From Desulfofustis sp. PB-SRB1 (GTDB lineage: Bacteria; Desulfobacterota; Desulfobulbia; Desulfobulbales; Desulfocapsaceae), in contig JAEQMT010000037.1 of the NCBI GenBank assembly GCA_016722945.1, positions 1 through 64,000 on the forward strand: a stretch of 64,000 nt of DNA, given 5' to 3'. The position numbers and the translations under genes were made by a program. Below are positions 7,084 to 26,500 of the stretch, piece after piece (the stretch's first letter is position 1; each line of letters opens with the position of its first letter). Under the pieces are notes generated by a model. The model was not told where the DNA came from, made no database searches, and worked only from the letters and a program-made list of their open reading frames with translations.

Positions 7084-7374
7084 CTATTGTTGAGGCAACA
7101 ACTTCTCAATAACAAGCTGCAAGCCTGAAATCTTAACCATCTCTTTGGATGGTGTACCAATCTGGCGTATTTGATACCCAGGGGGCTTTGGGTTTGAATG
7201 GAATATGGTCACCCCAGCCTCTGCAGTGCAATGCTGATACAAATATTCAACAACCATTGTTGCCACCGAATCCTTGACCCCTGAAACAAAAACGTTTGGT
7301 CGCGGCTCAACAAACCACAATTTCATTCTGCCCCGTACTGCAGGGGGTAGATCATTGGCTATGACGACCAACAC
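7084..7374 (-). CDS. cas2: CRISPR-associated endoribonuclease/adaptation protein Cas2e
   Basis: A 96-residue Cas2 of the I-E type, the homodimer that scaffolds the Cas1-Cas2 integrase during spacer acquisition. The start is taken as GTG 7374, giving an N-terminus (M)LVVIANDLPPAVRGRMKLW that aligns with Cas2e, with GGAG seven bases upstream. An ATG at 7398 would add eight residues. The gene overlaps the 3' end of cas1 by about 20 bases in another frame, indicating translational coupling. It is the last cas gene and sits against the array leader. Confidence 0.9.
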   Translation of the reverse strand: MLVVIANDLPPAVRGRMKLWFVEPRPNVFVSGVKDSVATMVVEYLYQHCTAEAGVTIFHSNPKPPGYQIRQIGTPSKEMVKISGLQLVIEKLLPQQ

Positions 7375-8227
7375 GTTTATTCTCCAAAATTTTATCAATA
7401 TCCTTGGGAATCCTTTCCAACAAATCCGCCTCTATTACCCGCTTACGAAACACCTCGGAAACAAAGTGTTTTTTGTATTGGACACCCATTTCACGGGTAA
7501 GGTAAAAAGCCAGATCAATGCAAAGAAATTCCTTGTACAAATCAGCCATGTCATACACAAAAGGTAAAGGACTGCCCGAATGGACAAAGCCAATATGCGG
7601 TGAGTAGCCCAAACTATGGATTGCTGAACACAGGATTCCATAAAGTGCCGCATTGGACGCAGTCAACACCTGGTTGGTGACATCACCGAACTCAAATTTT
7701 CCCGGGGTGAATCTCCGCCCCTTCCACCCCACTCCGTATTCTTCAGCCTTCCGCTCATAAAGAGACCGCACCCTGTGCCCTTCCATCCCCATCATCTCTT
7801 TCAACGTCTTGTTGGCCAAATCCGCATCTGTGAAACGGTACTCAAACATCCTGCGTGCAACGGCCAAGGCGTCATCCTTGTCTGCGGCAAGAAGCATTTG
7901 TTTTCTCAGGTTCCTGGTATGTGCCGTTGGCGTATACCCCGCAGCATAAAAGAGAAGACTATCCTCACCCACCCAACAGATGGAACAGTTGGCCGCGGCA
8001 GCGGTTTTGACCGCCTCATGGGTCACGCTGGTCCCCGGACCGAGGAGTAGGGTGTTGATGGTGGCAACCGGTAGCCGGACGACATGCGCCTCGCAATCGA
8101 TCCATTTCACACTGGAATCATCAATTTCCAAACGGCCCCGCTCCAAATACAAAAAAGGGTAGCGGTCTTTCACTTGGGGCAGTGATTCGCGGGTTACCTT
8201 GATAAAAAGGCGCTTCTGTTCAGTCAT
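7352..8227 (-). CDS. cas1: CRISPR integrase Cas1e
   Basis: A 291-residue Cas1, the metal-dependent integrase that inserts new spacers. The catalytic triad is recognisable: Glu in GMEGHRVR, His in GFVHSG and Asp in VYDMADLYK. The length is normal for the I-E branch (about 280-310). It is encoded six bases downstream of cas5 and overlaps cas2, so it is part of the single cas operon. Nothing suggests inactivation, so adaptation should be functional. Confidence 0.95.
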   Translation of the reverse strand: MTEQKRLFIKVTRESLPQVKDRYPFLYLERGRLEIDDSSVKWIDCEAHVVRLPVATINTLLLGPGTSVTHEAVKTAAAANCSICWVGEDSLLFYAAGYTPTAHTRNLRKQMLLAADKDDALAVARRMFEYRFTDADLANKTLKEMMGMEGHRVRSLYERKAEEYGVGWKGRRFTPGKFEFGDVTNQVLTASNAALYGILCSAIHSLGYSPHIGFVHSGSPLPFVYDMADLYKEFLCIDLAFYLTREMGVQYKKHFVSEVFRKRVIEADLLERIPKDIDKILENKRVGRHSQ

Positions 8228-8233
8228 TGCATG

Positions 8234-8947
8234 TCATTCAAGCCAGTTTTGCACTGTCACCCGACGATCGCGGTATCGTTTCTCCTCACCAAACTGAACT
8301 GGAACATCATTGAGGGTAACAACCTCCCCACCGTGCTCACCCTGAAGAACCCGAAAAGCAAAGACCTTCCCCTTTTCTTTGGCAAGTCTATCTCCGGCAC
8401 CCAGAGCTTCTGCAGCTGTGGAAAACAGTCCCTGGTATATTAGCTCCGTTGGCGCGCAGCACTTGCGCCCCAGGTAGAGATCCCAAACCGGATTCTGCAG
8501 CCGGACAACCGTTGTTTGGGCCTGATTACCAGGAACCTGCAGGGCAACCCCAAAGGCCATATCCTGGAGATAGTAACGATAGGTTAATTTTGTTCCTCCG
8601 CCAACGGCTCTTGTCCCTTCACTGGTTTTTGGAATCAAGAGATTTTGCCAGGGGTCTTTGTAGTCGTACCCACTCCCCACCATATGAAAATCCCGGAGCA
8701 AGGGTTCTCGAGGTACCGGCTTGCCCTGCCCGTCTGGACGCACAAATGCAACAAGCTGCATATCAAGATCAGCAAATGAGGCAAGCAGCCCCCGCTGCGC
8801 TCCGCCAGCCCCCATTGCACAGCACAGCAAGCCAAGCACTCCTGATTTGGTGGGAAAATCCAGACTATGGCGCCTGCCGAAGCGGGAATCATACCCCCAC
8901 GCCTGGAGCGGTGCCTCTAACCAAAGCAATAGATAGGGATCAACCAT
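8234..8947 (-). CDS. cas5e: Cascade subunit Cas5e (CasD)
   Basis: A 237-residue Cas5 that holds the 5' handle of crRNA in the Cascade complex. The N-terminus MVDPYLLLWLEAPLQAWGYD and RRHSLDFPTKSGVLGLL match Cas5e (the LxAPLQAWG and PTKSGVxGLL motifs). The start overlaps the cas7 stop by one base (TGATG), typical of fixed stoichiometry in Cascade operons. Confidence 0.93.
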   Translation of the reverse strand: MVDPYLLLWLEAPLQAWGYDSRFGRRHSLDFPTKSGVLGLLCCAMGAGGAQRGLLASFADLDMQLVAFVRPDGQGKPVPREPLLRDFHMVGSGYDYKDPWQNLLIPKTSEGTRAVGGGTKLTYRYYLQDMAFGVALQVPGNQAQTTVVRLQNPVWDLYLGRKCCAPTELIYQGLFSTAAEALGAGDRLAKEKGKVFAFRVLQGEHGGEVVTLNDVPVQFGEEKRYRDRRVTVQNWLE

Positions 8948-10002
8948 CAGTACAACTCCCTGACATGACCCTGCAGATCTTCGATAAGATTGTCAATGGA
9001 GTAATCTTCATTTTCACCCCACTCATAATCCCCCTTCTTGCCAAAAAGTGAACCGGAGAGTTTTTCTTTTTTCAGCAGGTACTCTTTGAGTTTTTCTTTA
9101 CTGGGCTCAAAATACCCCCCACCCCTCTGTAGCTGAACCGGGGTTTCAAATGGCACCTGCAGCCGCTGGCCCTGGCGCACCAATATCTTGGCAAACTCCC
9201 AGGGACTGGCGCCGGACTGGGTGGTCTGTCTTGCGCTGGGCACAGCCACATAAAGGGCCTTGGTAAAGACCTCGACTGCCTGTTTGACCCCCTCCTCGTC
9301 AAGCGTGGCCCCGAGCTGCCCCAGGTCAAGACTGATGTAACGGTAATAGGTAGCGGCGTTATATTCGAGGCTTCCCATATGAGCCGAGCCCGGCTCTTCG
9401 GACAAATCATCAAGGGCAGTAAAAAATTCCACCTCGTTACTCACCCGATGGGTAGAAATGGCATGGGAAAAAGAGGCGGCAGCCTCTACGTTCAAATCAG
9501 CCGCCTTGGCCACCATCCTGCCGAACAGGGCGATATCCAGGGCATCCAGACCGGCGCAGGTATTCTTTTTTACCACCTTTGTAATCTCGGAGGTCAGCTG
9601 TTTATCGGTTAACTGGTCAAGTTCAAAACCGTGCTCCATGGCAAAAAAAGCAAAGGCATCTGCCTCATGCTGACCGATAAAGAGCAGAGTATCGTCACTG
9701 AGGACCTGAGCTATTTTCTTCGCGCAGGCTGCGGCCTTCTCGGTATCAGCACCACTTTCCTGGCACGCTTTCTCCATAAATTCAGTCACCTTTTTTGTGC
9801 GGGTGCCCAGCTTCACCCCAAAGCCAGCCAGAGCCATCCTGACCTGGCGTTTCCAACACTGGGAACTGACACGCGCCCTGGTCACCCCGCCAACCATGGC
9901 ACTCTTGGGCGCGCCCACATCATCGCGGTTGAGACAGGTCACCGGGAAAGACTGGAGGATATGGTACTCAATGCGTGTATTCATCGATGCGCTTGTCTTC
10001 AT
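8947..10002 (-). CDS. cas7e: Cascade backbone subunit Cas7e (CasC)
   Basis: A 351-residue Cas7 that forms the six-copy backbone along the crRNA. The segments RIEYHILQSFPVTCLNRDD and RARVSSQCWKR are the standard Cas7e N-terminal motifs. The start at 10002 is supported by GAGGAGA four bases upstream; an alternative ATG seven codons later (MNTRIEYH) is also possible. It lies 22 bases downstream of cas6e, not upstream of it as in the E. coli order. Confidence 0.94.
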   Translation of the reverse strand: MKTSASMNTRIEYHILQSFPVTCLNRDDVGAPKSAMVGGVTRARVSSQCWKRQVRMALAGFGVKLGTRTKKVTEFMEKACQESGADTEKAAACAKKIAQVLSDDTLLFIGQHEADAFAFFAMEHGFELDQLTDKQLTSEITKVVKKNTCAGLDALDIALFGRMVAKAADLNVEAAASFSHAISTHRVSNEVEFFTALDDLSEEPGSAHMGSLEYNAATYYRYISLDLGQLGATLDEEGVKQAVEVFTKALYVAVPSARQTTQSGASPWEFAKILVRQGQRLQVPFETPVQLQRGGGYFEPSKEKLKEYLLKKEKLSGSLFGKKGDYEWGENEDYSIDNLIEDLQGHVRELY

Positions 10003-10024: not shown

Positions 10025-10660
10025 TTACAAAAAATCGGGGACAATCTGAAGCAAACCGCAGCCAAAGGCCCGGCCCCGCCCGATTCCCCGGGAAAAACTG
10101 CTTGTAAAACGTTCCCTGTCAGTCACTTCTAGTAGGCCGTGCAGACTTGCCTGGGCCATAGTTATTTGGCGCTGCCGTTTGTCTGTGAACCGAAGCACCT
10201 CGATCCTGTCCACCTGCAGGCTTTCCCTGTGTACCTGAAACCCCCAGCTCTCTTCTGCTCGTTCACAGAACCAGCCACTAACCGCTTCCCGTCCTTTTAC
10301 CGGCACCAGTTTTCTGGTGGTACTATCTCGATAGGTCGGATTGACAATGGTCTTGAAACGGTACCGTGATGCAGCAAGGAAAACCGAAGGAATCTCCTTT
10401 GTTTCCAACCTGCCGAGGTTCCCTTCCAGCTGTGCGGCCGGAAGCCGATCCGAGAGGATAAGTACTTTTCGACCAGTGAAATCGCCGCCCTGATCCGCAT
10501 AGACGATACCACTGGAAGCTGCAGCCTGCTTCTCCTGCACGCTGCGAATATCCTCAAACAGGCTGTAGATAACTCGATGCAGGGAGTAGGGGTCGGTTAT
10601 TCTCAATCTCTTGACGGCCTTGCGGTCCAGGTGAAGAACTGAAGCATAAAGTACTGCCAT
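10025..10660 (-). CDS. cas6e: crRNA-processing endoribonuclease Cas6e (CasE)
   Basis: A 211-residue RAMP endonuclease that cuts pre-crRNA below the repeat hairpin and stays bound to the 3' stem. The N-terminal YSLHRVIYSLF holds the expected catalytic His (residue 28), and the C-terminal GIGRGRAFGCGLL is the conserved glycine-rich loop. The start at 10660 overlaps the cse2 stop (TGATG), so the longer upstream frame is rejected. The position between cse2 and cas7 differs from the classical order, where cas6e follows cas5. Confidence 0.93.
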   Translation of the reverse strand: MAVLYASVLHLDRKAVKRLRITDPYSLHRVIYSLFEDIRSVQEKQAAASSGIVYADQGGDFTGRKVLILSDRLPAAQLEGNLGRLETKEIPSVFLAASRYRFKTIVNPTYRDSTTRKLVPVKGREAVSGWFCERAEESWGFQVHRESLQVDRIEVLRFTDKRQRQITMAQASLHGLLEVTDRERFTSSFSRGIGRGRAFGCGLLQIVPDFL

Positions 10661-11196
10661 CACGCCGCCTCCTCTTCCGTGGCCTTGGAGTAAAACTCCT
10701 GGGCCCACTGGGCCTTAACCTGCTGTCCACGCCAATACATCCTCCGTAACTGATTCAAAAGCCTGACGTAATCCAAAGGGATGGAGACCCTGCTCTGAAT
10801 CAAGGTCAGCAGCGGCCTCAGGATACGGCAAGTTTCGGCGACATCCTCACAGGCCAACAGACGGCGGAGCTTTGCCTTAGCCTGGTCGCTGGTGTTACCT
10901 TCCTCATAGCAGCGGGCAATCGCCCTGCCCAGGGACATGCTCCCTTTTTGCTGTGCCTTGCTCCTGGCCATTGCCGCGGCGACTGTCGCATAGGGGAGAC
11001 GCATGTATTCTTTTTCCAGATTAATGCCTAACGCCGCCAGTGCTTCCCAACTCTGGTACTCTGTATCCGGGTTGTCTGCGCGTCGCAAGCGGGCCGCATA
11101 CCCCTTATCCGTAGCACATCGATCAAGAACCATACTTACAAAACGAGTGACACGATCCGGTGGCATATCGTTTTGGCTGATGTTTGTCTCACTCAT
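10660..11196 (-). CDS. cse2: Cascade small subunit Cse2 (CasB)
   Basis: A 178-residue alpha-helical Cse2, the two-copy small subunit that stabilises the R-loop and displaced strand. The N-terminus DRVTRFVSMVLDRCATDKGY and internal AARLRRADNPDTEYQSWEAL match the CasB family (the LRRA segment). It overlaps cas8e at the start (ATGA) and cas6e at the end, so it is translationally coupled on both sides. Confidence 0.92.
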   Translation of the reverse strand: MSETNISQNDMPPDRVTRFVSMVLDRCATDKGYAARLRRADNPDTEYQSWEALAALGINLEKEYMRLPYATVAAAMARSKAQQKGSMSLGRAIARCYEEGNTSDQAKAKLRRLLACEDVAETCRILRPLLTLIQSRVSIPLDYVRLLNQLRRMYWRGQQVKAQWAQEFYSKATEEEAA

Positions 11197-12689
11197 ATCT
11201 CTTCCCTCTTTAAGTAGTTACTGAAGTTTGGCCGGAATTGTGCCCAGCCATCCAGCTGCCGGGCTGTGTCATTTGGACAGAAATGGTCATAGGTGTTAAG
11301 GGCCGCTGCCGCAAAAATCTTCCGAAGTTTTCTTCTTTCAGTCTCTGCCTGAGTTCCCTGGTCACAGCTATCAACCAGAGCCTGAAAGTTGCTTTCACAG
11401 AGCTGCCAGAACGTACTTGTTCCCTGACTTGCCAGCTTATCCCCTTCTGCTTTCAGAGCTGTGTAATAGCCCCGTATACAGCCGTATGTTTTTTTGGAAA
11501 TATTTTCTAGTTCTCGCATCTCTTGTTGCAATTGGCCAAACCAAATCTTGTCGATATAGTTACTTTCTAACCAGACCTCTGACTCAACAAAATCATCAGT
11601 GCCTGAGACATACTGTTCACCAGCGTTACTACTCACCCGGAGCCCACCAGACCACACAGCAAAGTTTTGCAATAAACGGCGTGCACGCGGTAGTGCCTTT
11701 CGAAGCTGCAAACAATCAAAAGTACCTGTCTCATGCTCAATAAAGCTGAGCAAAGCAGGGAGTTGGCGCCATGGTCGTTTTTCCGGATCACTCCATAATA
11801 CTTTAATTTTGCTCTGAGTTGCATCCATTGCAACTGTTGGGTCAACTATCCCTTCCTGATAGTTCATATGAGCCAGCCCCTCTGAATAGTGAAGCCCCTT
11901 ATCACTCATTAAGCAAAAACGACTCAATGGCACCAGCCGTCCCATATATGACTGCTTCAACTCTTGAGCTGTTTTACAATCCTCACCCGCAGGCATAGAT
12001 TCCCAGGGAGGAAATCCAAGACCACTAGAGAACATTTCGCTGTTTCGCAGGTCACTACCCACTAGCAAATTAAGCCGAATACTCTGCAAGATCGTTTTGC
12101 CATTCACAAAACTATGCAGCAAGCCCATAAAACCTAAAGATGGGCCAGGTTTGCCGGTGGAAGGTTTACCTTTTGGATTTGATTTACCTTTATAACCTCT
12201 GGTCAAAACCACACTGTTATCCGTTTTCTTTCCCCCCATGGAAAAGCCCATCAAAAGCACTAACAGCAGAGCTTTATCCGCATCTAGTAGTTCTCTTTCT
12301 TGATTAAACTGACTCAAAACAGTGGTGTTCCCTGTTGCCACCTCCGGTAATACCGCCCCATACCTCTGCTGTTGCGCAACAGATATGGCCGGCATCTGTA
12401 AAAAGGGCCGCTCACCATAGAGATAAAAACGGTCATGCCACTTCTCCAGGTAGGCTATACACCCAGCGGCCAGAGCTGCTTCATCCAGGGCCTGCCACGC
12501 CTGTTCATCGGGAAGCTCAGTTGCCGCCTGCCCGATGGCCAAGAGCAGTTTCATGAGGGCGATCTTCTCCACCGGGTTGCCGCCAAGGGTCCGGTATTCG
12601 AAGTTGGTAAAGACCTGTCTCAGGCTCACCCGCCCCACATCAGCAACTGGTATCCAGGGCTCGTCAATCAGGTTAAATCGGTTTTCCAT
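11193..12689 (-). CDS. cas8e: Cascade large subunit Cas8e (Cse1/CasA)
   Basis: A 498-residue Cse1, which recognises the PAM and recruits Cas3. The opening FNLIDEPWIPVADVGRVSLR is the diagnostic N-terminus of the family (NLIDEPWIPV). The length is typical (480-520). Its first codons overlap the end of cas3 by 22 bases, and its stop overlaps cse2. No disruption is seen. Confidence 0.95.
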   Translation of the reverse strand: MENRFNLIDEPWIPVADVGRVSLRQVFTNFEYRTLGGNPVEKIALMKLLLAIGQAATELPDEQAWQALDEAALAAGCIAYLEKWHDRFYLYGERPFLQMPAISVAQQQRYGAVLPEVATGNTTVLSQFNQERELLDADKALLLVLLMGFSMGGKKTDNSVVLTRGYKGKSNPKGKPSTGKPGPSLGFMGLLHSFVNGKTILQSIRLNLLVGSDLRNSEMFSSGLGFPPWESMPAGEDCKTAQELKQSYMGRLVPLSRFCLMSDKGLHYSEGLAHMNYQEGIVDPTVAMDATQSKIKVLWSDPEKRPWRQLPALLSFIEHETGTFDCLQLRKALPRARRLLQNFAVWSGGLRVSSNAGEQYVSGTDDFVESEVWLESNYIDKIWFGQLQQEMRELENISKKTYGCIRGYYTALKAEGDKLASQGTSTFWQLCESNFQALVDSCDQGTQAETERRKLRKIFAAAALNTYDHFCPNDTARQLDGWAQFRPNFSNYLKREEI

Positions 12690-15528: not shown

Positions 15529-15747
15529 TTAATCGCTAAGAGCGATACGATTCCAAAGCCACGCTATTGTGACCGCAGCAGTGTTCCCAAGCCCAGTGGG
15601 AATCGAGATAATGCGCGAAACACATTCGGTGCCATGTGCAAGATCTTCAGCTTTCTTAAGGACTGCGTTTTCCCCGCATGCAATTCGAGTTTGATAATCA
15701 TACGGGGCATAGCCGGTTGCTCTCTTAAAAAATTCAGGAAAATTCAT
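15529..15747 (-). pseudogene. N-terminal stub of a type I-G/I-U-like cas3
   Basis: A 72-residue frame starts MNFPEFFKRATGYAPYDYQT and continues with SRIISIPTGLGNTAAVTIAW and LWNR, then stops. The pattern FFxxATGxxPYxYQ followed by a PTGLGKTAA..AWLW helicase motif I is what I know from Cas3 proteins of the type I-G (formerly I-U) subtype, not I-E. The catalytic lysine of Walker A is changed (GLGNT instead of GLGKT) and the remaining ~90% of the protein is missing. The ATG at 15747 begins the homology. The stub points towards the intact I-E operon and follows the WYL regulator, as an original regulator-cas3 arrangement would. Confidence 0.7.
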
Positions 15748-15865
15748 TTTTGTTATAGGTTTTTCTGTTGACGTATGTAAATGAGAGTCACTTAGATTGA
15801 CGGTCTGTCTTACCACCACCCTACCACCCCCGCGTATCAAAAAATGATCCGGTGAGAATTATTTT

Positions 15866-16840
15866 TCATTTTTTTTTGCAGGCCTGCAACGCTTTTTCCA
15901 GGCGAGCGCATACCGCCCGGGCCAGATCCGGCGGGGCGATGACCTGCACGTCGGGGCCGTGGCGCAGGATTTCCATGACCAGTTCGCGCTGGTCGGAATA
16001 GGGCACACGCAGTTCATACCGGCCGTCGCTCAGCCAGCGGCCTTCCTGGGCGGGGTGCCACTGTTCTTCCGCCACCCAGCGGGCGCTGTGGCTGGTGAAA
16101 AGCAGCACCGCCTGGTGGTTGGGGGGGCCGGTGAAGATGCCGAACGACGAGGTCAGTTCGGCGGCCATGGTCTGGTCGTCGACTTCCGTGGCGGGGTGGT
16201 TCTGGGTGACGATATCGCTCATCCGTTCAAGAGCCATGACGCGCAGTCCGCCGCGGGTATGGCAGTAGGCGGCCAGATACCAGTTGCCCCGGTAGTAGAG
16301 CAGGCGCTGAGGTGATACGGTTCTGGTGGAAATACTGTTTTCACCCCGGCTGTGATAATTGAGTTTGAGGCGGGTGCGCTCGATAAGCGCGGTGGCGGCG
16401 GCCCGGAAGGCGAGCGGACAGCAGAGCCGGATACCGGCGCCGACAAACTGGATACGCTTGACCAGTTCGCCGGTGCTGACGCCGCGCCCGGCCAGCAGTT
16501 TTTCGATGCGCTCGCGCAGCGGCTGGAGTTCGGCCCTGAGCAGGCCCGGATCAAGGCCGCCGATCAGCTCATGAATGGCCAGCAGGGCGTGAAGTTCGGA
16601 GACATTGAACCAGAGGCCGGGAAATTCCACCTGGTCATCGTTTTTTTTGTCGAGGATATAGCCCTGATATTTCTGGCTGTAGGTAACCGGCAGGTTGTAT
16701 TCGTTGCGCAGTTTGGCAAGATAGCGCTTGACGGTGGGCAGCGAGCACTCAAGGCGGGCGGCCAGCTCTTGGGCGCTTACCGCGTAGCGGCTGCTTTGCA
16801 GGATGGCGGTAAGCTCGTAAACGCGGTCGAAGGAGGCCAT
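15866..16840 (-). CDS. WYL-domain transcriptional regulator
   Basis: A 324-residue regulator. The N-terminal DeoR/HTH_11-like winged helix (FDRVYELTAILQSSRYAVSA, then ELAARLECSLPTVKRYL) is followed by a linker and a WYL domain around residues 150-235, including SPQRLLYYRGNWYLAAYC. A WCX-like C-terminal part ends the protein. WYL domains sense nucleic acids or nucleotides, and WYL regulators often sit at CRISPR and defence loci. Here it is just upstream of the type I-G-like cas3 stub, so it probably regulated that vanished operon; it may now act on the I-E genes or only on itself. Confidence 0.9.
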   Translation of the reverse strand: MASFDRVYELTAILQSSRYAVSAQELAARLECSLPTVKRYLAKLRNEYNLPVTYSQKYQGYILDKKNDDQVEFPGLWFNVSELHALLAIHELIGGLDPGLLRAELQPLRERIEKLLAGRGVSTGELVKRIQFVGAGIRLCCPLAFRAAATALIERTRLKLNYHSRGENSISTRTVSPQRLLYYRGNWYLAAYCHTRGGLRVMALERMSDIVTQNHPATEVDDQTMAAELTSSFGIFTGPPNHQAVLLFTSHSARWVAEEQWHPAQEGRWLSDGRYELRVPYSDQRELVMEILRHGPDVQVIAPPDLARAVCARLEKALQACKKK

Positions 16841-17028
16841 GAATCAATTATCCCTGTATGAAAACATGTGAAGTCGGGACACTACTAGTGTACGAAAATT
16901 TTTTCACGCCATTAGTGCGCTGCACCATGGTCGGCGCCGCTTGTCCGGCACACGTTATTCGGAATTGAAGAAGGCGCCATTAACCCCGCTCATGGCAGAG
17001 CAGAGAGATACCATGCAGGTCTATTTTT
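16841..17028. other. Intergenic region upstream of the WYL regulator
   Basis: A gap of 188 bases between the divergent upstream side of the WYL gene and the end of the ATPase gene. It should contain the WYL promoter. An ACTAGTGTACG/ACGCCATTAGTG pair near 16886-16918 may be an imperfect operator, but this is weak. Confidence 0.3.
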
Positions 17029-18480
17029 CTACTCGTCCAGCTCTGTTTTTCCGAGCCAGTAACAGGCGAGCGGGGCCGGAATCCTTGCCCACCGCACCGG
17101 CTCAAGGCCGCGTGTCGACTCAACCTTCAAAGGGGGAGAAACGATGGAAAAATCCGCGCTATCTCTGGTGATGACATAGCCGTGCGAGACCTTACGCGCC
17201 GTGCAGAACTCGGCCAGACCTTTCAGATCTACAATGCCGGTGTTTCGAGCACAATATTTTACTTCGAAGGGGATCACCTCGCCGTGTACTTCGGCAACGA
17301 TATCGACCTCTCGGTCTTTTCTGCCGCGCCAATAGGAGAAACCAACGCTCACCGGGTAATAGCGGGCGAAGACGTGCTTGAAACATGTTGTTTCAACGGC
17401 CGCGCCAAGGGCTGTCGGGTCTTCCAACAACGTTGCCGCGGTGAGCAGCACCGAAGGGGCAATGGCGAGATCGGCCAGATAGATCTTGTAACGGGCACGC
17501 AGAATCTCTTTACCGTAGCCGAACGGCGGCACTTTATAGATCAGATGGGCCGCTTCCATCAGGTTGATGAAATTGTTGACTGTCGGCTTTTTCAACTCCA
17601 GGTTCCGACAAAGCATCTGCATGTCCATTATGCCGCCACCATGCAGGCAAAGGTAGACAAACACCTGTTCAATCTCGAGCACGCGCCGGACGCCAAAGAG
17701 CGCCGTCATGTCGCGTTTCAAGACCTTGTCGACGATATCTTCACGCAGAAGTTTCTGGGCGGCGGTAATGCTGTTCATGAGAGCAGTCTGGGGAAAGCCG
17801 CCGCGAAGTAAATATTCATGGAAATGAGCGACCATCGGCGCACTATCAGCCCCCACCCTGGCGAACTGTTCTGGTGACCAGTCAAATAGTTCAGCAAGGG
17901 AATCAAGAGCGGGAGGCGCGGGTATGTCGATCTGCTTGATATGCAGATATTCATAAAATGAAAGGGTGAAAATGCGCAGCGTATGCCAGCGGCCGACCCC
18001 TGATTCCTGTCCTTCAGTAACTAGCGGTGTCGCCGAGCCGGTCACCGCGATGCGTCGTTTTTTCTCGAAATCGACCTGGAGTTTCAGCCACGTCTGCCAA
18101 TCGGTGACAGTGTGGATTTCATCGAGAAAGAGATATTCAATCCCGCCGGTTTCCGGCTCGAACTCGCGCCACAATTTGATGAGACCATCGAGGCCGAGGG
18201 ATTTGAGCAAGGGGTGGTCAAACGTTGCATAGAGGATTTTCTCAGCACCAACGCCGTCTTCGATCAGCGCCTGGATGACCTGCAGAAAAAGCGTCGTTTT
18301 GCCAACCTGTCGAGCGCCGGTAAGCAGCAGTGCCCGCGGCGCCGGGGGTGATTGCATCCACCTGAAAATATAATCAAACACGGGCCGCCGCCAGGTGGGG
18401 AGATCGGCCGGTGAGGAGCCGCGCCACCAGGGATTGTAATGGCGAAGCACCGTGATGAATTCAGACGAGGAAGCGATCAT
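17029..18480 (-). CDS. AAA_14/DUF4143 family ATPase
   Basis: A 483-residue ATPase of the widespread AAA_14 + DUF4143 type. Walker A (LLTGARQVGKTTLF) lies near residue 57, Walker B in EYLFLDEIHTV near residue 115, and a sensor-like VTGSATPL follows. The C-terminal DUF4143 half contains a restriction-endonuclease-like segment (DREVDIVAEVHGEVIPFEVKY). These proteins are common, often in variable regions, and their cellular role is not settled. The ATG at 18480 is preferred over an upstream TTG. A short palindrome lies just upstream (18505-18523). It is monocistronic. Confidence 0.88.
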   Translation of the reverse strand: MIASSSEFITVLRHYNPWWRGSSPADLPTWRRPVFDYIFRWMQSPPAPRALLLTGARQVGKTTLFLQVIQALIEDGVGAEKILYATFDHPLLKSLGLDGLIKLWREFEPETGGIEYLFLDEIHTVTDWQTWLKLQVDFEKKRRIAVTGSATPLVTEGQESGVGRWHTLRIFTLSFYEYLHIKQIDIPAPPALDSLAELFDWSPEQFARVGADSAPMVAHFHEYLLRGGFPQTALMNSITAAQKLLREDIVDKVLKRDMTALFGVRRVLEIEQVFVYLCLHGGGIMDMQMLCRNLELKKPTVNNFINLMEAAHLIYKVPPFGYGKEILRARYKIYLADLAIAPSVLLTAATLLEDPTALGAAVETTCFKHVFARYYPVSVGFSYWRGRKDREVDIVAEVHGEVIPFEVKYCARNTGIVDLKGLAEFCTARKVSHGYVITRDSADFSIVSPPLKVESTRGLEPVRWARIPAPLACYWLGKTELDE

Positions 18481-18504
18481 GAAAATACCCAAAAGTGCAT
18501 ATTA

Positions 18505-18523
18505 AGGTAATCATACTTTACCT
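18505..18523. promoter_or_regulatory. Palindrome upstream of the ATPase gene
   Basis: AGGTAA (18505-18510) and TTACCT (18518-18523) are separated by seven bases, about 25 bases before the ATPase start codon. The position suits an operator or a 5' UTR hairpin. No regulator is evident. Confidence 0.3.
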
Positions 18524-18681
18524 AAAATATCATTTTAAAGATAATTTTCTCCTTTCGCCACAAAAATCGCACAGATTGGGAGATTATACGCTGCCGTCAA
18601 GCACAGCTGTTTTCCATCGCTGCTGAAAAGGTTCTAGACAATGCTAAAATAAAAGACCTGAGAACCCCGCCTCGCTACTCC

Positions 18682-18843
18682 TGATAGAATCGTAAAAACA
18701 TCTATCACCGTCATGGTGGAGCTGACCCGAAATCGACAATCACTTGAAATTACTGGATTCCCGCTGCAGCCTGCCCTTGAGTGTTGTTATCGAGGGCGGG
18801 AATGACGTTAGCAAGCAAGATCAGGGTTTTTACGAATTCATCA
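18682..18843 (+). repeat. MITE-like repeat, copy A
   Basis: A 162-base element beginning TGATAGAATCGTAAAAAC and ending GTTTTTACGAATTCATCA, imperfect inverted termini. The interior has GGATTCCCGC ... GCGGGAATGACG, which pairs into a long hairpin. It shares its sequence with the copies at 20330, 23401 and 30021 (inverted). A few bases upstream (18644-18665) is a decayed half of the other repeat family (AAAATAAAAGACCTGA). Its last three bases read TGA on the minus strand and are the stop codon of the response regulator. Confidence 0.85.
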
Positions 18844-19515
18844 CTCCTGCAGGGCGTAGCCGATGCCCCGGTGGGTGATGATGGGGTCGAGGTCGGGGCG
18901 GATGGTTTTGAGCTTGGCGCGGATGTTTTTGATATGGGCGTCGACGGTGCGGTCCATGCTTGCCTGCGGTTCTTCCCAGGCGAGGTTCATCAGTTGTTCA
19001 CGGGAAAAGACCCGGCCCGGATGGTCGATAAGCACGGCGAGCAGGTTGAACTCGTAGCGCGACAGGGCCAGCGGTGTGCCGCAAAATTCAATTCGCTGTC
19101 TGGGTTGATCCAGGCTGAACAATGAAACCGGCTCGTCAGCGCTGGAATCTCTGCCGGTGCGGCGCAGCACCGCCTTGACCCGGGCGGCCAGCTCGCGGGG
19201 GCTGAACGGTTTGACCACGTAGTCATCGGCGCCGATCTCAAGACCCACCACCCGGTCGATCTCATCGGAGCGGGCGGTGAGAAAGATAATGGGCACCGAC
19301 GAATGGGCGCGCACCTGCCGGCACACCTCGATACCGTCGATATCGGGCAGGCCGATATCAAGAACAATCAGGTCGATGTGCTGTTGGGCCAGCTCGTCCG
19401 CCACCGCGCCGCCGGTAGTAACGCGCAGGGTTGTGCAGCCGTTGGTCTGCAGGGCGTAATCGATGGTATCGGCGATGGCCGGCTCATCTTCGACGATGAG
19501 GATACGTGGTTTCAT
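18841..19515 (-). CDS. OmpR-family response regulator, CreB-like
   Basis: A 224-residue two-component regulator. The receiver domain has Asp53 as phosphoacceptor (VLDIGLPD), an acidic pocket (VEDEP) and Lys102 (VVKPFSPREL). The C-terminal winged helix ends HRGIGYALQE. It resembles CreB (GLPDIDGIEVCRQ, TARSDEIDRVVGLEIGADDY, then a C-terminal DRTVDAHIKNIRAKL). No sensor kinase is adjacent, so it is an orphan here. It lies 54 bases downstream of the exosortase gene on the same strand and is probably co-transcribed with it. Its stop codon is provided by MITE-like copy A, so the C-terminus may have been reset by that insertion. Confidence 0.88.
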   Translation of the reverse strand: MKPRILIVEDEPAIADTIDYALQTNGCTTLRVTTGGAVADELAQQHIDLIVLDIGLPDIDGIEVCRQVRAHSSVPIIFLTARSDEIDRVVGLEIGADDYVVKPFSPRELAARVKAVLRRTGRDSSADEPVSLFSLDQPRQRIEFCGTPLALSRYEFNLLAVLIDHPGRVFSREQLMNLAWEEPQASMDRTVDAHIKNIRAKLKTIRPDLDPIITHRGIGYALQE

Positions 19516-19569
19516 AGATGGTTATCTGTTGTTCCCGGCACAGGGTGTCGAGGCGTGTGGGTGATTATT

Positions 19570-20307
19570 TTACGATCCTTTTATCGAGCGAGGTATCAGC
19601 GTCACCACAAGCCCCGGCAGGCTGAGTGCGCCGCTTAGCAGCACAACGGTGGTCGCGTGCCGGGTGAAGGCGGCCACGTCGCTGAGAAAATTGCCGGTAA
19701 CCAGCGGCGCCCCCAGGGTAATCAGCAGATACCCGGCCGGCGGCACCAGCCACCAGGCCCAGGGTGGCGGCGCCCACCCGGTGGCATTTGCCACCGGCGC
19801 TCGTCTTTTTAGTATAACCGATACCCACCAGAACAGACAGAGCAGACTGCCGTAGTAGATAACCACCCCGCCGATGAGATGGGCCAGCTCAGCAGTGAAA
19901 CGGGTGCCATAGATATCAAGATGATGCAATTCGATCAAGAGCCGGATGCGCAGGGTATTGACCATCAGCGTCGCCGCAAAGACCGCCGGCAGGGCCGCCG
20001 CTATCCAGCCCAGCTGCGCGATGGGGGAACGAAACCCCCAGACGCCGCGCAGCCCCACGGCGCAGAAGGCGACGATCAGAAAATTGATGCCGGCGCACGA
20101 CGGTGCGATCACCGCGTTGTGAGTGGCGTCGATCCAGCCTAGCCCGCTTTCACGGACAAAGTGCAGATCAGACACCATGTTTATCAGGGCGGCGGTGGGC
20201 GCCAGAATCCAGTCAAGTTCCTTACCGGAGGCGGCGCCGTATGTCTTCTTCAACCACAGGGCCGGGGCGACGATGGCCAGGATGGAGATGATGAGTCGTG
20301 TTTTCAT
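19570..20307 (-). CDS. xrtK: Exosortase K-like membrane protease/transpeptidase
   Basis: A 245-residue polytopic membrane protein with the exosortase/archaeosortase catalytic signature: Cys71 in IAPSCAGINFL, Arg120 in MVNTLRIR and His143 in ELAHLIGG. Exosortases cleave C-terminal PEP-CTERM-like sorting tails and hand the protein to the cell envelope. The size and form fit the XrtK group, which tends to serve one neighbouring substrate. Upstream in the same direction, past a MITE-like repeat, is a VIT/vWA protein with a sorting-like C-terminus. AAGGTGATATC precedes the start. The subtype name is from memory. Confidence 0.82.
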   Translation of the reverse strand: MKTRLIISILAIVAPALWLKKTYGAASGKELDWILAPTAALINMVSDLHFVRESGLGWIDATHNAVIAPSCAGINFLIVAFCAVGLRGVWGFRSPIAQLGWIAAALPAVFAATLMVNTLRIRLLIELHHLDIYGTRFTAELAHLIGGVVIYYGSLLCLFWWVSVILKRRAPVANATGWAPPPWAWWLVPPAGYLLITLGAPLVTGNFLSDVAAFTRHATTVVLLSGALSLPGLVVTLIPRSIKGS

Positions 20308-20329
20308 GATATCACCTTATGATGGTGTC

Positions 20330-20481
20330 GTAAAAACCCCAATTACGGTCATTGTGGAGTTGAATCGAAATCCATAATTATCTGAAATTACTGGATTCCC
20401 GCTGCAGCCTGCCCTTGAGTGTTGTTATCGAGGGCGGGAATGACGGTGGCAAGCAAATTTGAGGTTTTTACGAATTCATCA
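20330..20481 (+). repeat. MITE-like repeat, copy B
   Basis: A 152-base copy of the same element, with ends TGATGGTGTCGTAAAAACC and GGTTTTTACGAATTCATCA. It lies between the exosortase gene and its putative substrate gene, separating what would otherwise be one operon. The remaining ~85 bases up to 20567 show nothing. Confidence 0.88.
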
Positions 20482-20567
20482 CCTTGTGGGCCTGCTGTTT
20501 TTTCACATTGTGGCGGGGACCGATTATGGCGCGATCCCCGCGCCTGTAGAGTCCACCCTCTGTTTTA

Positions 20568-22565
20568 TTACCTCATTGACACCTTCGATCTGCGCCTCAA
20601 AAGTACAAAACCGAGCGCCACCAGCAGCATCCCGGCGATATGGGCCAGTGACGGTTCGGAATAATTGCGTATAGATTTGCCGACGGCGAGGTTGGAGACC
20701 CCTTTGGGCAGCGGCAGTGGCTGTTTGACATCGGTTGCCTGGCCGTCCGGGTTACGAACGATCTCATCGACTGCCACAAATGAGGTGAATTTTGTCAGCA
20801 GGTTATAGGTCAAGCCAAGAGAGACGATCCGGCGCCTGAGTTCATCATCATGAGCACCGCTGATATAATCGGAAATGCGGGCGATACGAGAGCGTGCCCA
20901 GAGGTAGCCAAGCGCCGGGTTATCCGGCCCGGAAGGCCCATCACCAAATGAAACGGTGCTATCGTAGCTCCCGCCGGCGGTGGCGCCGGTCAGGGTCAGG
21001 GTTGCCTCGCTGGTCGCCCCACGCCACTTGCCATAGACCAGAATGGGTCGGGCCGCAAAGAGATCGGCAATGGCGGCGGGCTCCACATCGTAGAGTTCGA
21101 CACCTGATGAGCTGAGCGCGATATCGGTGAGCAGCGGCGTCGAAATATACTCTTTGAACCGGGCCGCCGTCCCGGGCGCCTGGGCCGGTTCGGTGACCAC
21201 GAACGGATAGCCACGCCCGGCCCGGGCCATGCCCTCGATCAGGTAGCGGTTGACGCCGCTGCCGATCCCGAATGTAAAGACGTTGGTGTGGCCCAGATTT
21301 TTCTCGACCTCCTCAAATACCGAACGCTCCCCGTTAATGTAGCCGTCGGTGACGATTACCAGCGAACGTGACACGCCCTCGGCCCGCGGCAGGGCCATGG
21401 CGCGGCGCATGGCGGTAAGCAGTTTGGTACCGCCGCCGCCGTCCTGATCGTTGATAAACTCAATCGCCCTGTTGATCTGCGTGGTGGTGGCCGGCAGTGA
21501 GGCAGGGGCCAGGATATTGGCGGTACCGGCAAACAGCAGGACATTGAAGCTGTCCTCGGCCCGCAACCCGCCAAGCAGCCGCTGCATCAATTTTTTGGTG
21601 GTGTTGAGGGGAAACCCGTGCATGGACCCGGACACATCCACCACGAAGATGTACTCACGTGGGGGTATCTGCTCAGGTGTTACCCGCTCGGGCGGCTGCG
21701 CCATCAGCAGGAAGAAATTTTCGTCCTCGCCCTGATGGAGCAGCAGACCAGTGGAAATGGCCGCGCCGGCCAGCTGATAACGGACGATCACGTCGCGGTC
21801 ACCGCCAAACTCATGACCATCGGCGAGTTCGATGCGGGCACGCTGGGCGGTGTCAAAGGTGATGGTCGTATCGTGGCTGGGGCTGGTGACCTTTGCGATA
21901 TCCATGCCGGCGTTAATGGCCATGGTGATGGAAAAATCGGTACGGGGCTCTGAATCTTCACGCAGATACGGGTTGGCGACCCAGCGCTCATCCGGGGCAC
22001 TGGTGTCGGCGGGCAGATTTGAATAGCGCGGCCCCACCACGGTGGGATAGACGAATTCATAGACGCCCTCGGCGGGAATGAGCAGTTCGGTGTAGCGCAG
22101 TTCCACGGTAAGGTTGTCGCCGGGCATGATGTTCGCCACCTCCATGGAAAAGACGTTGGGCCGTTTCTGGGCCAGCAGCGAAGCGCTTTTGCCCGCCTTC
22201 TTGGCGGCTTCGAAAATCTGTCTGGCCGCCTCCTTCTCCTTGATTTTTGCGGTTATCAGCCGCTCGCCGATGCGCATCTTCATGCCGTGCACCGCCGCCC
22301 GGGTGGAACCGGGAAAGATGTAGCTGCCGTTGATGGGTGCCGCTCCGTTATTTTCGTAGTACTGGGTCACCTTCACGTCGGCAATCACCCCGCTGATGGT
22401 CACCTCCACCTTGGTGTCTTTCAGGGGAAACTGCTCCGCCGACGGTTCATCGCCCGCTACGAAAAAGTAGGGGGAAAGGGTTTGCTGATCCGCATTGGCC
22501 AGGCCGGGGCCCGCCGTAATCACTACCACCGCGCATATCGTCCACAACAGTTTTACCGCATCCAT
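20568..22565 (-). CDS. VIT + vWA domain envelope protein, putative exosortase substrate
   Basis: A 665-residue secreted protein. A signal peptide (LLWTICAVVVITAGPGLANA) is followed by a VIT domain (roughly residues 35-165; compare inter-alpha-trypsin inhibitor heavy chains). A von Willebrand A domain follows, with the MIDAS motif VDVSGSMHG near residue 308. The C-terminus ends with YSEPSLAHIAGMLLVALGFV and a RRR cluster, the Pro/hydrophobic/basic layout of a sorting tail. It is related to the family I know as marine proteobacterial sortase targets. ATG 22565 is chosen because AAGGAGGGG precedes it. With the exosortase downstream, it is probably anchored or released at the outer surface. Confidence 0.87.
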   Translation of the reverse strand: MDAVKLLWTICAVVVITAGPGLANADQQTLSPYFFVAGDEPSAEQFPLKDTKVEVTISGVIADVKVTQYYENNGAAPINGSYIFPGSTRAAVHGMKMRIGERLITAKIKEKEAARQIFEAAKKAGKSASLLAQKRPNVFSMEVANIMPGDNLTVELRYTELLIPAEGVYEFVYPTVVGPRYSNLPADTSAPDERWVANPYLREDSEPRTDFSITMAINAGMDIAKVTSPSHDTTITFDTAQRARIELADGHEFGGDRDVIVRYQLAGAAISTGLLLHQGEDENFFLLMAQPPERVTPEQIPPREYIFVVDVSGSMHGFPLNTTKKLMQRLLGGLRAEDSFNVLLFAGTANILAPASLPATTTQINRAIEFINDQDGGGGTKLLTAMRRAMALPRAEGVSRSLVIVTDGYINGERSVFEEVEKNLGHTNVFTFGIGSGVNRYLIEGMARAGRGYPFVVTEPAQAPGTAARFKEYISTPLLTDIALSSSGVELYDVEPAAIADLFAARPILVYGKWRGATSEATLTLTGATAGGSYDSTVSFGDGPSGPDNPALGYLWARSRIARISDYISGAHDDELRRRIVSLGLTYNLLTKFTSFVAVDEIVRNPDGQATDVKQPLPLPKGVSNLAVGKSIRNYSEPSLAHIAGMLLVALGFVLLRRRSKVSMR

Positions 22566-22689
22566 ACTCCCCTCCTTGTGGGTTGAATTGTTCGACAAGA
22601 GATTATGGACAAGAGATAGCAGCCGTTCGTGAAGCAGGTATGAACAGACGGTGAAAAGTGTGTGAAAAGGGGGTTGCGGCGAAAACCAA

Positions 22690-22710
22690 GTAATACTATA
22701 CTTGTATTAC
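22690..22710. promoter_or_regulatory. Operator palindrome of the AbrB/VapC module
   Basis: GTAATAC (22690-22696) and GTATTAC (22704-22710) form an inverted repeat around TATACTT, overlapping a likely -10 region 20-40 bases before the antitoxin start. AbrB/MazE-type antitoxins autorepress by binding such sites, so this is the probable operator. Confidence 0.6.
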
Positions 22711-22732
22711 CGTCTCTAAAGGAGGATACGTG

Positions 22733-22993
22733 ATGCGAGTCACCATGAAAGGACAGGTTACCATACCAAAAGATGTACGCGAGATTTTAGGAATCACTCC
22801 TGAAACAGATGTAGATTTTCAAGAAGAAAACGGTAAATTCTACATTGTAAAGACCTCACCTGACAAGCCCAAAAAGAAATTTGCCAGACTGCGTGGGATC
22901 GCCACCGCGAACATGAGCACCGATGAAATATTGGGTCTTACCAGAGAGAAAAATGAGGTTGGCCAGAATGGCCATTGTGCAGGGTCCCCATGA
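22733..22993 (+). CDS. AbrB/SpoVT-type antitoxin
   Basis: An 86-residue protein with the swapped-hairpin AbrB DNA-binding domain at the N-terminus (MRVTMKGQVTIPKDVREILG), followed by a tail that would wrap the toxin (TSPDKPKKKFARLRG). It binds the operator upstream and neutralises the downstream PIN toxin. AAAGGAGG precedes the ATG; a GTG three bases earlier is also possible. Its stop overlaps the toxin start (ATGA). Confidence 0.9.
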   Translation: MRVTMKGQVTIPKDVREILGITPETDVDFQEENGKFYIVKTSPDKPKKKFARLRGIATANMSTDEILGLTREKNEVGQNGHCAGSP

Positions 22994-23397
22994 ACGGTGT
23001 GCTCATCGACTCGTGCGTGCTGCTCGATCTCTTTACCAATGATCCGAAGTGGCGCCACTGGTCGGAAAACACCCTCGAGCAGTACAGCCGGACCAACACC
23101 CTGTACATCAATGCAATCGTTTACACCGAAGTCTCGATCGGCTTTAACAAAATCGAGGAGACTGAATCAGCAATTGGACACATAGGCGCCAAGGTTCTTG
23201 AAATTCCCCGGGAGGCACTGTTTCTTGCCGGTAAAATATTTCTGCAATACAGGAGAAACAGGGGCACGGCGCCCAACGTCCTGCCCGACTTTTTTATCGG
23301 TGCTCATGCAACGATCTCTTCGTTTGCTCTCATGACACGAGACACCGAGAAGTATACAACCTACTACCCAAATCTTAGGCTCATTTCACCTTCGTAA
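22990..23397 (+). CDS. vapC: VapC-type PIN-domain toxin RNase
   Basis: A 135-residue PIN-domain ribonuclease, complete in length. The first acidic catalytic residue is in MNGVLIDSCVLLDLFTND, the conserved Glu in AIVYTEVSIGF, and later acidic positions in PNVLPDFFIGAHA and MTRDTEKY. It is translationally coupled to the AbrB antitoxin and should be active. A MITE-like repeat begins three bases after its stop. Confidence 0.9.
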   Translation: MNGVLIDSCVLLDLFTNDPKWRHWSENTLEQYSRTNTLYINAIVYTEVSIGFNKIEETESAIGHIGAKVLEIPREALFLAGKIFLQYRRNRGTAPNVLPDFFIGAHATISSFALMTRDTEKYTTYYPNLRLISPS

Positions 23398-23400
23398 AAG

Positions 23401-23561
23401 TGATGGCATCGTAAAAACCCAATTACGGTCATTGTGGAGCTGAGCCGAAATCCATAATCATTTGAAATCACTGGATTCCCGCTGCAGCCTGCCCTTGAGT
23501 GTTGTTATCGAGGGCGGGAATGACGGCAGCAAGCAATGTTGAGGTTTTTACGAATTCATCA
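23401..23561 (+). repeat. MITE-like repeat, copy C
   Basis: A 161-base copy running from TGATGGCATCGTAAAAACC to GGTTTTTACGAATTCATCA. It fills the gap between the converging vapC and the acyltransferase fusion gene, where its internal hairpin could serve as a bidirectional terminator. Confidence 0.88.
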
Positions 23562-23575
23562 ATCGTTCGGCATCA

Positions 23576-26500
23576 TCAATTTCTGAGTTTCGTATATTCA
23601 GCGGAAATGTCGTGCGTCGCCAGTACATCCCGGGCTACCTCACGTTGCAACGCTTTATAATCGATCTTGCCGGTGCCAAGCAGCGGCAACTCGTCGATTC
23701 GCACCACCTTGCTTATCCAGTGCAGTGATGAGAGCCCTCCGGTACGGATGGCCCGGTTAATCTCATCGAGTTCAACATCAAAGGTGGTGAAAAGCACCAG
23801 TTCGGGGTGTGCCTCATCTCCTGCTGATTCCACTGCCAGACAGGGGCCGTCGCTGCACCGGTCGGCAAAATGGTCACCGAGCAGCGCCTCGATGGCGGGC
23901 AGGGAGATCATCTCGCCCGCTTTTTTGACAAACCGCTTCAGCCGTCCCGCAAAAACCAGCACACCGTCCTCTACCACCACCAGATCACCGGTCTTGTACC
24001 ACTGTTTGCCCAGAAGATAGACAAAGGGAGATGAATCGTGCCCGCCACCATAGCCGGCAAAGACATTCGGCCCGGCAACCAGCAGCATGCCCCGTTCTCC
24101 CGGCGCCAGCACCTCGTGCGTTTCGGGATGAACGATCAGTGTTTCCATGGACGGCATTACCCTTCCGATCGTTCCCGGCCGGGGCTGTTCCGGATTGTTA
24201 ATGCTTACCAGGGGGGAACATTCGGTTATTCCATAGCCTTCACACAGGACCGCGTCCGGGCAGTGGTGTTGAAACTGTCTGTATACATCGGCGGGACATG
24301 CCTCCGCCCCGGTGAAGACGAGGCGCAGGGAGGTAAGAGCGCCGGGATGTGCGGCATGCATCATGTTCTTTATGAAGGCAGGGGTTCCCACCGTGACAGT
24401 GATGGCAAAATCATCCACCATGGCGGCGATCTGGGCGCCCTGGGTAGGATCAGGCTGATAGGCGGTAGGCAGCCCCAGACACAAGGGCATCACCTGGGTG
24501 CCGGAAAAACCCAGTGAATGAAAGGGAGGCAGCATGCCCAGCAGCCGATCACCACGGGTAAAGGTGATCGCTTCGGCAAAATCGGCCAGGTTGGCCATGA
24601 TGTTGCGGTGGCTCAAGGGCACTACCTTGGGCGCCGCTTCGGAGCCACTGGTGAACAGAATCACCGCGGTTTCGCTGATTGGTGTTGCGGCCAGCCGGCG
24701 GGGCATAAACCGCGCCTGAACCACCCCTGTAAGCTTGCGGGTGAAGCTCATGGCCGCCGCCCTCCGATCAAGCAGAAACCAGTCAACCGCCAGGCGATCC
24801 GCATTGATACCGTAGCGGCCAAGCCGTCCCACCAGTTGAGAAGCACTGATAATCGTCGAGACCTTCGCCGTCCGCAGGCAATGGCGCAGATTCCTCTCCC
24901 CCACCGTCCAGTTGATCATCACCGGCGTCTTGCCGCTATACATAACGCTCAGCCAGGCGATGACCGAGGCCACCGAGGCGGGGAGCATGATACCGATCCG
25001 TTCGTCCTTCAGCCGTTTTATCTGAGGCAACAGGACAAAGACCGTGGTCAGCAGGTCACGATATGTCTTCACACCGCTGCGCCGATCCGCGACGATGGGC
25101 TGATCCGGCATGGCGACAGCCTGATTGAGGATGATTTCGGCCAGATTGTCCCCAGCTGCCGGATGCAACCGTTGCCGGCCGCGCTCGGCAAACCAGCGGC
25201 GAGATATCGGCACCGAGGCGGCCGTATCGGTAAGTCCAGCCTGGCCGGCGGCGGCCGCGATCCAGTGGGCCACGCGTGTCAGGTCTTCGGTCTGTTCCGC
25301 GGCAACGCCATAGGTCTGCTCGACCCAGACTGCCAGCTCAAGGGCGCTCAGGCTGTCAAGGCCCAGATCAGCCATGACCAGATCGCTTTCACGTACCGCG
25401 TCAACCCCAGCCAGCTCGGCGACTTTAGCCATCACCTGATCTTTTATCGTGGTATCGATGGATGCAGTATCGGGCGGAGAAGCAGTTCGTGCGCCTTCAG
25501 CCCTCACCTGCCCGGCGGCGCGCCGCCACCGGTAGTAGGGTACCTGAGTGCACGGCTCGTTCGGTTCGTTGTAGAACTGCTCCAGGAAAGTGTTGATACT
25601 CCTCTTGTCTGCGTGACGGGGAAAATCAGCCTGTTCTATGAACTCTATGGTAACCGGTCGTTTTGGCGTGAAAAAGAACCCGCCGGCAAGCAGGTGCAGC
25701 AGGTGTCTGCCCACATCGCGCAGCAGAGCCGGCGGTTTTCCCGACGCCCAGCTGAAACTGCTGCCCCACAGGCCGGTGGTCCGTACCAGGACGATGCGGG
25801 CATCCGGGGCATGGCTGAGAATCGTTGCGGTTCCGGAATTACCGCCGACAATCTCGCGACCGCTGCGATAGAGCCGGCCGGCCGGATAGAACAATAGGTG
25901 CTCACCGTTGTTCAGCGCCTCACCGGCACGGCGCAGGGCGGCCTCGGTCTGCTGACGCACACCCCGCCCATCGCGGCCTACATCTGGAATCTCAATAGCG
26001 TTGATGGCACGCAGGACATGACGGACGAGAGGTTTGCGGGCCTGATGCACATCTGAGACGGGACGTGGTGCAAATCCGTTTTGCATAAGCGTCGTGCCCA
26101 CCAGAACCGGGTCGATCAGGGCCGGGTGGTTGGGCAGAAAGATGATACCGCGCTCATCATCGCCACGTTCAATGTGATCGAGCCCTTTGATGGTAAGCTG
26201 GTAGCGTCGCCGCACCAGCAGGCTAAGAGCCGATGCCGCACCGCGCAGAGCCAATCGGCCAAGCATCCCACGGCGCCCGCCCCTTTCTGAACGGGCGGCC
26301 AGAATGAAAAGTGGTGCAATAGTGATACAGATGATTCCCATACCAAACAGCAGCACCGACGGGAGACCCAGCGGCTGCGCCACGCTGTAAAGATAACCGG
26401 CACCGAGAATAGCGGAAAAAGAGACGAAATTGGAGGCGCTGATGATCCGTCCCTTGTCGACGGCGGCGGGCCTGGTCTGAATGAAACTGGCCACCGGGAT

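Follow-up and report, generated by a model that had tools for sequence, protein, structure and literature searches.

Organization of the locus

The window, as we call the whole stretch of 64,000 nt from Desulfofustis sp. PB-SRB1 analysed here, carries on its minus strand a gene for a WYL transcriptional regulator. A 72-codon ORF (hereafter the stub) lies 118 nt behind it and, after another 167 nt, the cas3 gene of a type I-E operon begins (Table 1). The regulator displays the wHTH, WYL and WCX architecture of defence-linked WYL regulators and was also recognized by the PADLOC profile for CRISPR-associated WYL proteins (2e-36). The I-E operon is complete, with seven genes over the curated NCBIfam cut-offs and cas3 scored by PADLOC Cas3e, and is accompanied by a CRISPR array. 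A first-pass annotation of this DNA had placed an intact operon, in the same direction, about 170 bases past the stub, as is indeed found.

Table 1. Coordinates of the features of the WYL-cas locus in the window
Feature	Position	Strand	Evidence or remark
WYL transcriptional regulator (HTH_11 + WYL + WCX), 324 aa	15866-16840	-	Pfam WYL 1.5e-19, WCX 2e-17, HTH_11 7.4e-8
Putative WYL operator GGATCA-ttttt-TGATAC	15834-15850	-	15 nt after the WYL stop; gap-5 palindrome search
TAGGGT, degenerate -10-like element	15818-15823	-	Position common to relatives
Left junction, last base common to the window and contig C16	15810		blastn C16:3536-13408 = window 15810-25662, 98.5%
Truncated cas3 of type I-G (first ~70 codons), left from the replaced operon	15529-15747	-	TIGR02621 2.6e-12
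Type I-E cas3, 897 aa	12668-15361	-	PADLOC Cas3e 4.4e-156
cse1/casA	11193-12689	-	TIGR02547 1.1e-54
cse2/casB	10660-11196	-	TIGR02548 2e-20
cas6e/casE	10025-10708	-	TIGR01907 8.5e-43
cas7e/casC	8947-10002	-	TIGR01869 1.2e-90
cas5e/casD	8234-8947	-	TIGR01868 2.4e-50
cas1e	7352-8227	-	TIGR03638 5.9e-98
cas2e	7084-7398	-	TIGR01873 6.7e-29; ORF as listed, true start possibly further in
CRISPR array	4564-7036		41 repeats of 28 nt (GAAACACCCCCACGGGCGTGGGGAAGAC), 40 spacers

Comparison of the array spacers with the stub, the WYL flank and a Cas9-encoding contig (see below) gave matches of chance length only (13-18 nt), and targeting of one system by another through these spacers was rejected on this basis.

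A remnant of a type I-G Cas3

The only curated NCBIfam model matched by the 72-aa stub peptide is that of type I-G Cas3 (TIGR02621, 46.4 bits, model positions 1-56 of 854), far beyond chance, and its best PADLOC models are those of Cas3g (2.7e-11). The motifs of this peptide had initially been read as type I-G/I-U, with a search against subtype-specific Cas3 profiles suggested as a check; these profiles bear the reading out, I-G being the best and not I-E or I-C. No Pfam match was obtained for the stub in a profile search and nothing relevant in a PDB search, and a scan of genome contigs with the 72-aa query, which is too short a peptide, returned no confirmed relatives.

The best full-length relative of the stub is the N-terminus of the Cas3g of L009/L060 (genome G096), from another family of the same order as the window organism, with 61% identity over 70 aa; the next best are 34-44% identical. 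Homology to the L060 Cas3g stops at stub residue 70, indicating that it was a junction, and not a point stop, that truncated the gene. The ORF consists of about 70 codons of Cas3g, then a few codons of other sequence, then the stop. Thus, the initial description as 72 codons of Cas3 ending in a stop was right in its coordinates and wrong in taking all of them for Cas3. The stub includes the N-terminal helicase start with the I-G subfamily motif I but, with 72 aa and 46.4 bits, falls short of a full-length Cas3g (helicase and HD nuclease, >400 bits). Its sequence identifies it as a remnant of a type I-G Cas3 rather than as a member of the family.

Several features fit a decaying remnant. The Walker-A lysine is replaced by an asparagine in the stub (GNT) while GKT is present in all 11 of the other Cas3g in our set for which the motif was recovered. 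No Shine-Dalgarno-like sequence was seen before the stub, at a place where the L060 cas3g has AGGAGGT. A search for a complete type I-G operon elsewhere in the genome found no full-length Cas3g, and the window itself keeps nothing of such an operon except the Cas3 N-terminus. One could alternatively regard the stub as a functional small gene under selection, coding for a regulatory or decoy peptide with the ATPase N-terminus of Cas3g. The frame is open over its 72 codons, 28 of the 55 codon differences from L060 are synonymous, and a Cas3-family N-terminal piece of similar length precedes the new cas3 in another locus, L128 (see below). Nevertheless, the loss of a lysine kept in every other recovered motif, the loss of the ribosome-binding site and the occurrence of a stub of this kind in only 1 of the 82 loci compared below, with none on contig C16, make such a function improbable.

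Type I-G as resident and type I-E as newcomer

The arrangement predicted by the first-pass annotation for a relative, a WYL gene heading a full I-G operon, is that of L009/L060, where the order is WYL - HIRAN ORF - Cas3g - Cas8g - Csb1 - Csb2 - Cas4/1 - Cas2 - array. The WYL protein of L009/L060 is 62% identical to that of the window and the Cas3g N-terminus 61%, while the array repeat differs from the window repeat. In the WYL tree, built from 81 proteins, the window protein clusters with those of L060 and L061 (95*), both located ahead of I-G genes.

The I-E proteins point elsewhere. Identities of Cas3, Cse1, Cas7, Cas5 and Cas1 are respectively 50, 44, 54, 61 and 74% with L074, and 51, 55, 55, 61 and 73% with L112, compared to 38% or less with all other I-E loci of the set, including the WYL cousin L062. 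The WYL proteins of L074 and L112 are only 50% and 43% identical to the window WYL. The GC content is 62% in the WYL gene, 57% upstream and 51.5% in the I-E operon. Since WYL and stub lead to L060, the I-E proteins to L074 and L112, and GC content differs, we take WYL and stub as residents and the I-E operon as a newcomer. A replacement of I-G by I-E leaving the old regulator and a stub, as first proposed, is supported by the subtype of the stub, the L009/L060 arrangement and this mismatch between WYL and I-E; the peptide has no better match among I-E, I-C or non-Cas proteins, and it does form a gene start in a relative.

WYL genes of the same family also head the I-E operons of L074, L112 and L062, and the regulator might therefore belong to the I-E operon and have travelled with it, the I-G fragment being an unrelated insertion. 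We consider this very unlikely: the WYL and stub on one side and the I-E proteins on the other have different closest relatives, the WYL tree contradicts it, there is an 11-point GC gap between the WYL gene and the operon, and contig C16 has the WYL gene and its flank but not the I-E operon.

Two further observations concern the genes behind WYL in relatives. A small ORF with a HIRAN domain (PF08797) and a Tat-like signal lies between the WYL and cas genes of many of them, whichever the CRISPR type (L009:11066-11542 and L128:11110-11496; similar ORFs were identified by eye in L012, L014, L082, L090, L121 and L134), and is absent from the window. Behind the WYL gene closest to that of the window, Cas3g and Cas8g are fused in a protein of 1245 aa (L061:1729-5463).

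A second contig with the same WYL flank

Contig C16 of the same assembly corresponds to window positions 15810-25662 over 9.9 kb at 98.5% identity, with 61 gap events relative to the window, 46 of them in genes. The match extends 8 nt beyond the -10-like element that follows WYL; from there C16 continues with a type II-B Cas9: the Cas9b profile matched over the RuvC and HNH regions (5.5e-137 and 1.7e-21), in two pieces of a frameshifted gene. C16 therefore shares the WYL gene and its flank with the window, but neither the stub nor the I-E operon. The contig is error-rich and no other II-B Cas9 was found among 395 genomes of the phylum, so its junction could be a chimera. C16 probably represents a second strain in the population, an artefact being possible for this contig alone, and we do not lean on it by itself.

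The same suspicion can be raised for the window, as two unrelated contigs falsely joined at the WYL-cas boundary by binning or assembly: the genome is a draft of 71 contigs with 3.8% contamination, and CRISPR regions assemble badly. This is hardly credible for a contig of 240 kb with ORFs intact across the junction, where the stub is itself a biological join with a lost lysine and a lost ribosome-binding site. Moreover, the same pattern recurs in many independent genomes, including those of the cultured Nitrosomonas Nm33, Nm34, Nm44 and Nm45. Judged from these sequences, the WYL gene is the fixed element of the site, with varying CRISPR systems behind it.

The rest of a II-B locus was sought in the assembly and not found, the other Cas1 genes having a different context. 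By eye and by Cas1 profile, they fall in a separate type III-like (Cmr) CRISPR locus on C45, at about 387-398 kb, and at a position on C41, about 15.5 kb, where Cas1 stands alone.

Exchange of CRISPR types behind WYL in relatives

A scan of 84,980 species genomes by WYL alignment yielded 80 relatives, giving with the window and C16 a set of 82 loci. Downstream systems, labelled by similarity to proteins that were in part profile-tested, were I-G in 16 loci, I-C in 15, I-E in 13, I-F in 11 and II-B in 1, the remainder being BREX (1), other defence (3) and unassigned (22, many of them truncated by contig ends). The same WYL family is thus found next to I-C, I-E, I-F, I-G, II-B, BREX and HKD+Snf2 systems. 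The WYL tree tracks host groups. CRISPR type, on the same tree, requires 45 changes compared to a mean of 49.7 for shuffled labels, a scatter almost like that of the shuffles.

Closely related loci are more direct. Nitrosomonas L116 (I-E), L111 (I-F) and L134 (I-C) have six to eight upstream genes in common, 82-98% identical at the amino acid level. Five to eight left-flank genes are common to the Desulfocapsaceae loci L074 (I-E), L071/L064/L066 (I-C), L068 (I-F) and L073 (I-E), and nine upstream genes to Methylotenera L123 (I-F) and L128 (I-C). The same left flank also leads to I-G in L092 and L097 and to I-E in L099, or to I-E in L085 and I-C in L089. Different CRISPR types behind the same left flanks, at orthologous sites, prove exchange.

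DNA homology spans the WYL flank, the WYL gene and a palindrome behind it, and then usually ends within about 0-150 nt. It ended at most 160 nt past the WYL stop in 92% of 95 locus pairs of different type, pairs which overlap and are not independent. Examples are L071/L074 (+75/+72), L068/L071 (+52/+61), C16/window (+55/+56) and L092/L099 (+121/+123). However, homology also often stops early in same-type pairs (median +42.5), and part of this early loss is therefore ordinary intergenic divergence. The flank synteny of close pairs is stronger evidence than the positions where homology ends. The junction is also not always at the operator, as homology extends 0.7-1.9 kb past WYL in the BREX-like relatives, Nitrosomonas L116/L134 and Methylotenera. 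As to the right border, none was found common to the loci compared; acs, examined as a common right flank of the Desulfocapsaceae loci, was rejected since it adjoins the array only in L064/L152 and lies elsewhere in five relatives.

In a WYL subclade (L075, L077, L079, L080 and L081), the regulator is followed by a conserved ORF of about 214 aa. What comes next is BREX in some cases and an HKD+Snf2 helicase system or other genes in the rest. Homology in this subclade stops after the ORF, to which the swap point has thus shifted.

A second scar was observed in Methylotenera L128. Here, a frame starting with MMVTFVSQ corresponds to the first ~60 residues of Cas2-3f (80% identity), is preceded by an intact cas1f and runs directly into the I-C cas3; its relative L123 has a full I-F operon at the same place. 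By its sequence, L128 is an analogous scar, where the left junction once more lies near the start of the former cas3-family gene. A preferred breakpoint cannot be claimed from two cases. Taken together, the locus is a recurrent exchange site and not the product of a single event.

Palindrome and promoter-like element behind WYL

Closely following the WYL stop is a palindrome of consensus GGNTCA-N5-TGANCC, in many loci at +5 to +35 and in some overlapping the stop codon. A score of at least 12 of 13 at gap 5 was reached in 35 of the 82 loci, compared to 0.07% for shuffled sequences and 0.9% for the ends of other ORFs from these loci. No palindrome above background (score 9) was present in 21 of the 82, and 3 loci score 8. 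The window palindrome is mismatched in its right arm (TGATAC). The palindrome precedes I-C, I-E, I-F, I-G, II-B, BREX and other systems. Upstream of WYL no palindrome rose above background, and autoregulation through such a site was rejected.

Relatives carry a -10-like element (TATGAT, TAGGAT or TATAAT), most often 10-11 nt behind the palindrome. A TATGAT-like element with 5-6 matches was found in 17 of 43 cases against about 5% of shuffles; the TAGGGT box of the window is weak. We infer that WYL binds the palindrome. The regulator may also control the incoming cas operon, which is made likelier by a palindrome kept before every kind of operon.

A proposed docking site for CRISPR-Cas operons

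CRISPR types move between genomes, and both the landing place and the regulation of an incoming operon are poorly understood. In the present locus, both the landing place and the putative control element are defined at single-base resolution: they consist of the WYL gene already in place and of a short palindrome. We propose that WYL and the following ~60 nt, with palindrome and promoter-like element, would constitute a fixed regulatory docking site for the exchange of whole CRISPR-Cas operons. In the ancestor of the window lineage, a type I-G operon would have stood behind WYL, an arrangement still seen in L060. A type I-E operon with its array would then have replaced it, the new left junction falling inside codon ~70 of the old cas3 and creating the stub, while in a co-occurring strain (C16) the same WYL would have received a II-B Cas9 with a junction just past the promoter-like element. 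Such exchange would need only a left crossover in the common WYL-side DNA and any recombination on the right. The evidence consists of the locus anatomy, the stub subtype, the phylogenetic mismatch, the common left flanks, the junction positions and the conserved palindrome. We hold the account as a whole, with a fixed WYL docking site, an I-G operon replaced by I-E and the stub as a scar, to be highly probable.

With regulator and operator staying put, each incoming operon would come under the same control. WYL would sit on the palindrome, which would overlap the cas promoter in its -35 region. The I-E operon would be expressed from the promoter at this site. By analogy with BrxR and Sll7009 (see below), the protein is most likely a repressor, released upon infection or DNA damage.

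The proposal can be extended, with about even chances of being right, to a universal adaptor in Proteobacteria and Desulfobulbales. WYL, its GGNTCA-N5-TGANCC operator and the promoter would place any subtype (I-C, I-E, I-F, I-G, II-B) and some other defence systems under regulation at once, crossovers would take place in the regulator DNA, and exchange would occur within populations of one species. The WYL-palindrome module is a candidate for a universal switch controlling five CRISPR subtypes, and offers a testable explanation for CRISPR subtype being so poor a guide to descent. Searching for such modules is a way to locate CRISPR exchange sites, and scars like the Cas3g stub serve to date and order the exchanges.

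Relation to known systems

Several of these elements have precedents, namely WYL regulators linked to defence, mosaic defence islands and, for BrxR, operators made of inverted repeats 5 bp apart. The BrxR family consists of WYL regulators found with BREX and in defence islands (Picton et al. 2022, PMC9122601; Luyten et al. 2022, PMC9122589); BrxR is a repressor whose binding sites are 11-bp inverted repeats separated by a 5-bp spacer, and the genes behind brxR are mosaic (PMC9122601, PMC9122589). In its gene arrangement the present locus resembles it, as an HTH-WYL regulator precedes defence systems that are interchangeable. It differs in the position of the site: the box studied for BrxR precedes brxR, and another precedes brxA, whereas here the palindrome lies behind the WYL stop and before the CRISPR operon. 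The cargo differs as well, since whole CRISPR-Cas operons of 4-5 subtypes are exchanged at the same chromosomal position.

Sll7009 is described as a WYL negative regulator of a type I-D CRISPR locus in Synechocystis (Hein et al. 2013, via PMC4012209 and PMC9122601). The likeness lies in a WYL regulator dedicated to one cas operon; in these citing accounts Sll7009 concerns one subtype in one strain with no exchange described, in contrast to the exchange among subtypes seen here. In the parts consulted of Makarova et al. 2014 (PMC4012209), wHTH-WYL proteins are predicted to control CRISPR-Cas operons upon infection ligands, and neither an operator nor a site-specific subtype exchange, both proposed here, is given for this class. 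As for the lost system, the stub is the Cas3 N-terminus of an operon of the GSU0051-54 kind, in type I-G (formerly I-U); L009 has the full set and the window only that N-terminus. A literature search that covered few subscription journals returned no account of WYL and its operator as a fixed exchange site of CRISPR subtypes.

Other features of the contig and of related loci

Proteins of the BRO-N family are encoded inside or beside the CRISPR operons of some of the relatives (L128:12573-13430 and ORFs in L046-L049). On the window contig, a dispersed repeat of ~163 bp, with copies 80-92% alike, occurs in at least 7 places and in both orientations (copies include 18682-18844, 20320-20482, 23401-23564 and 30021-30183); its appearance is that of a small repeat of mobile or regulatory nature.
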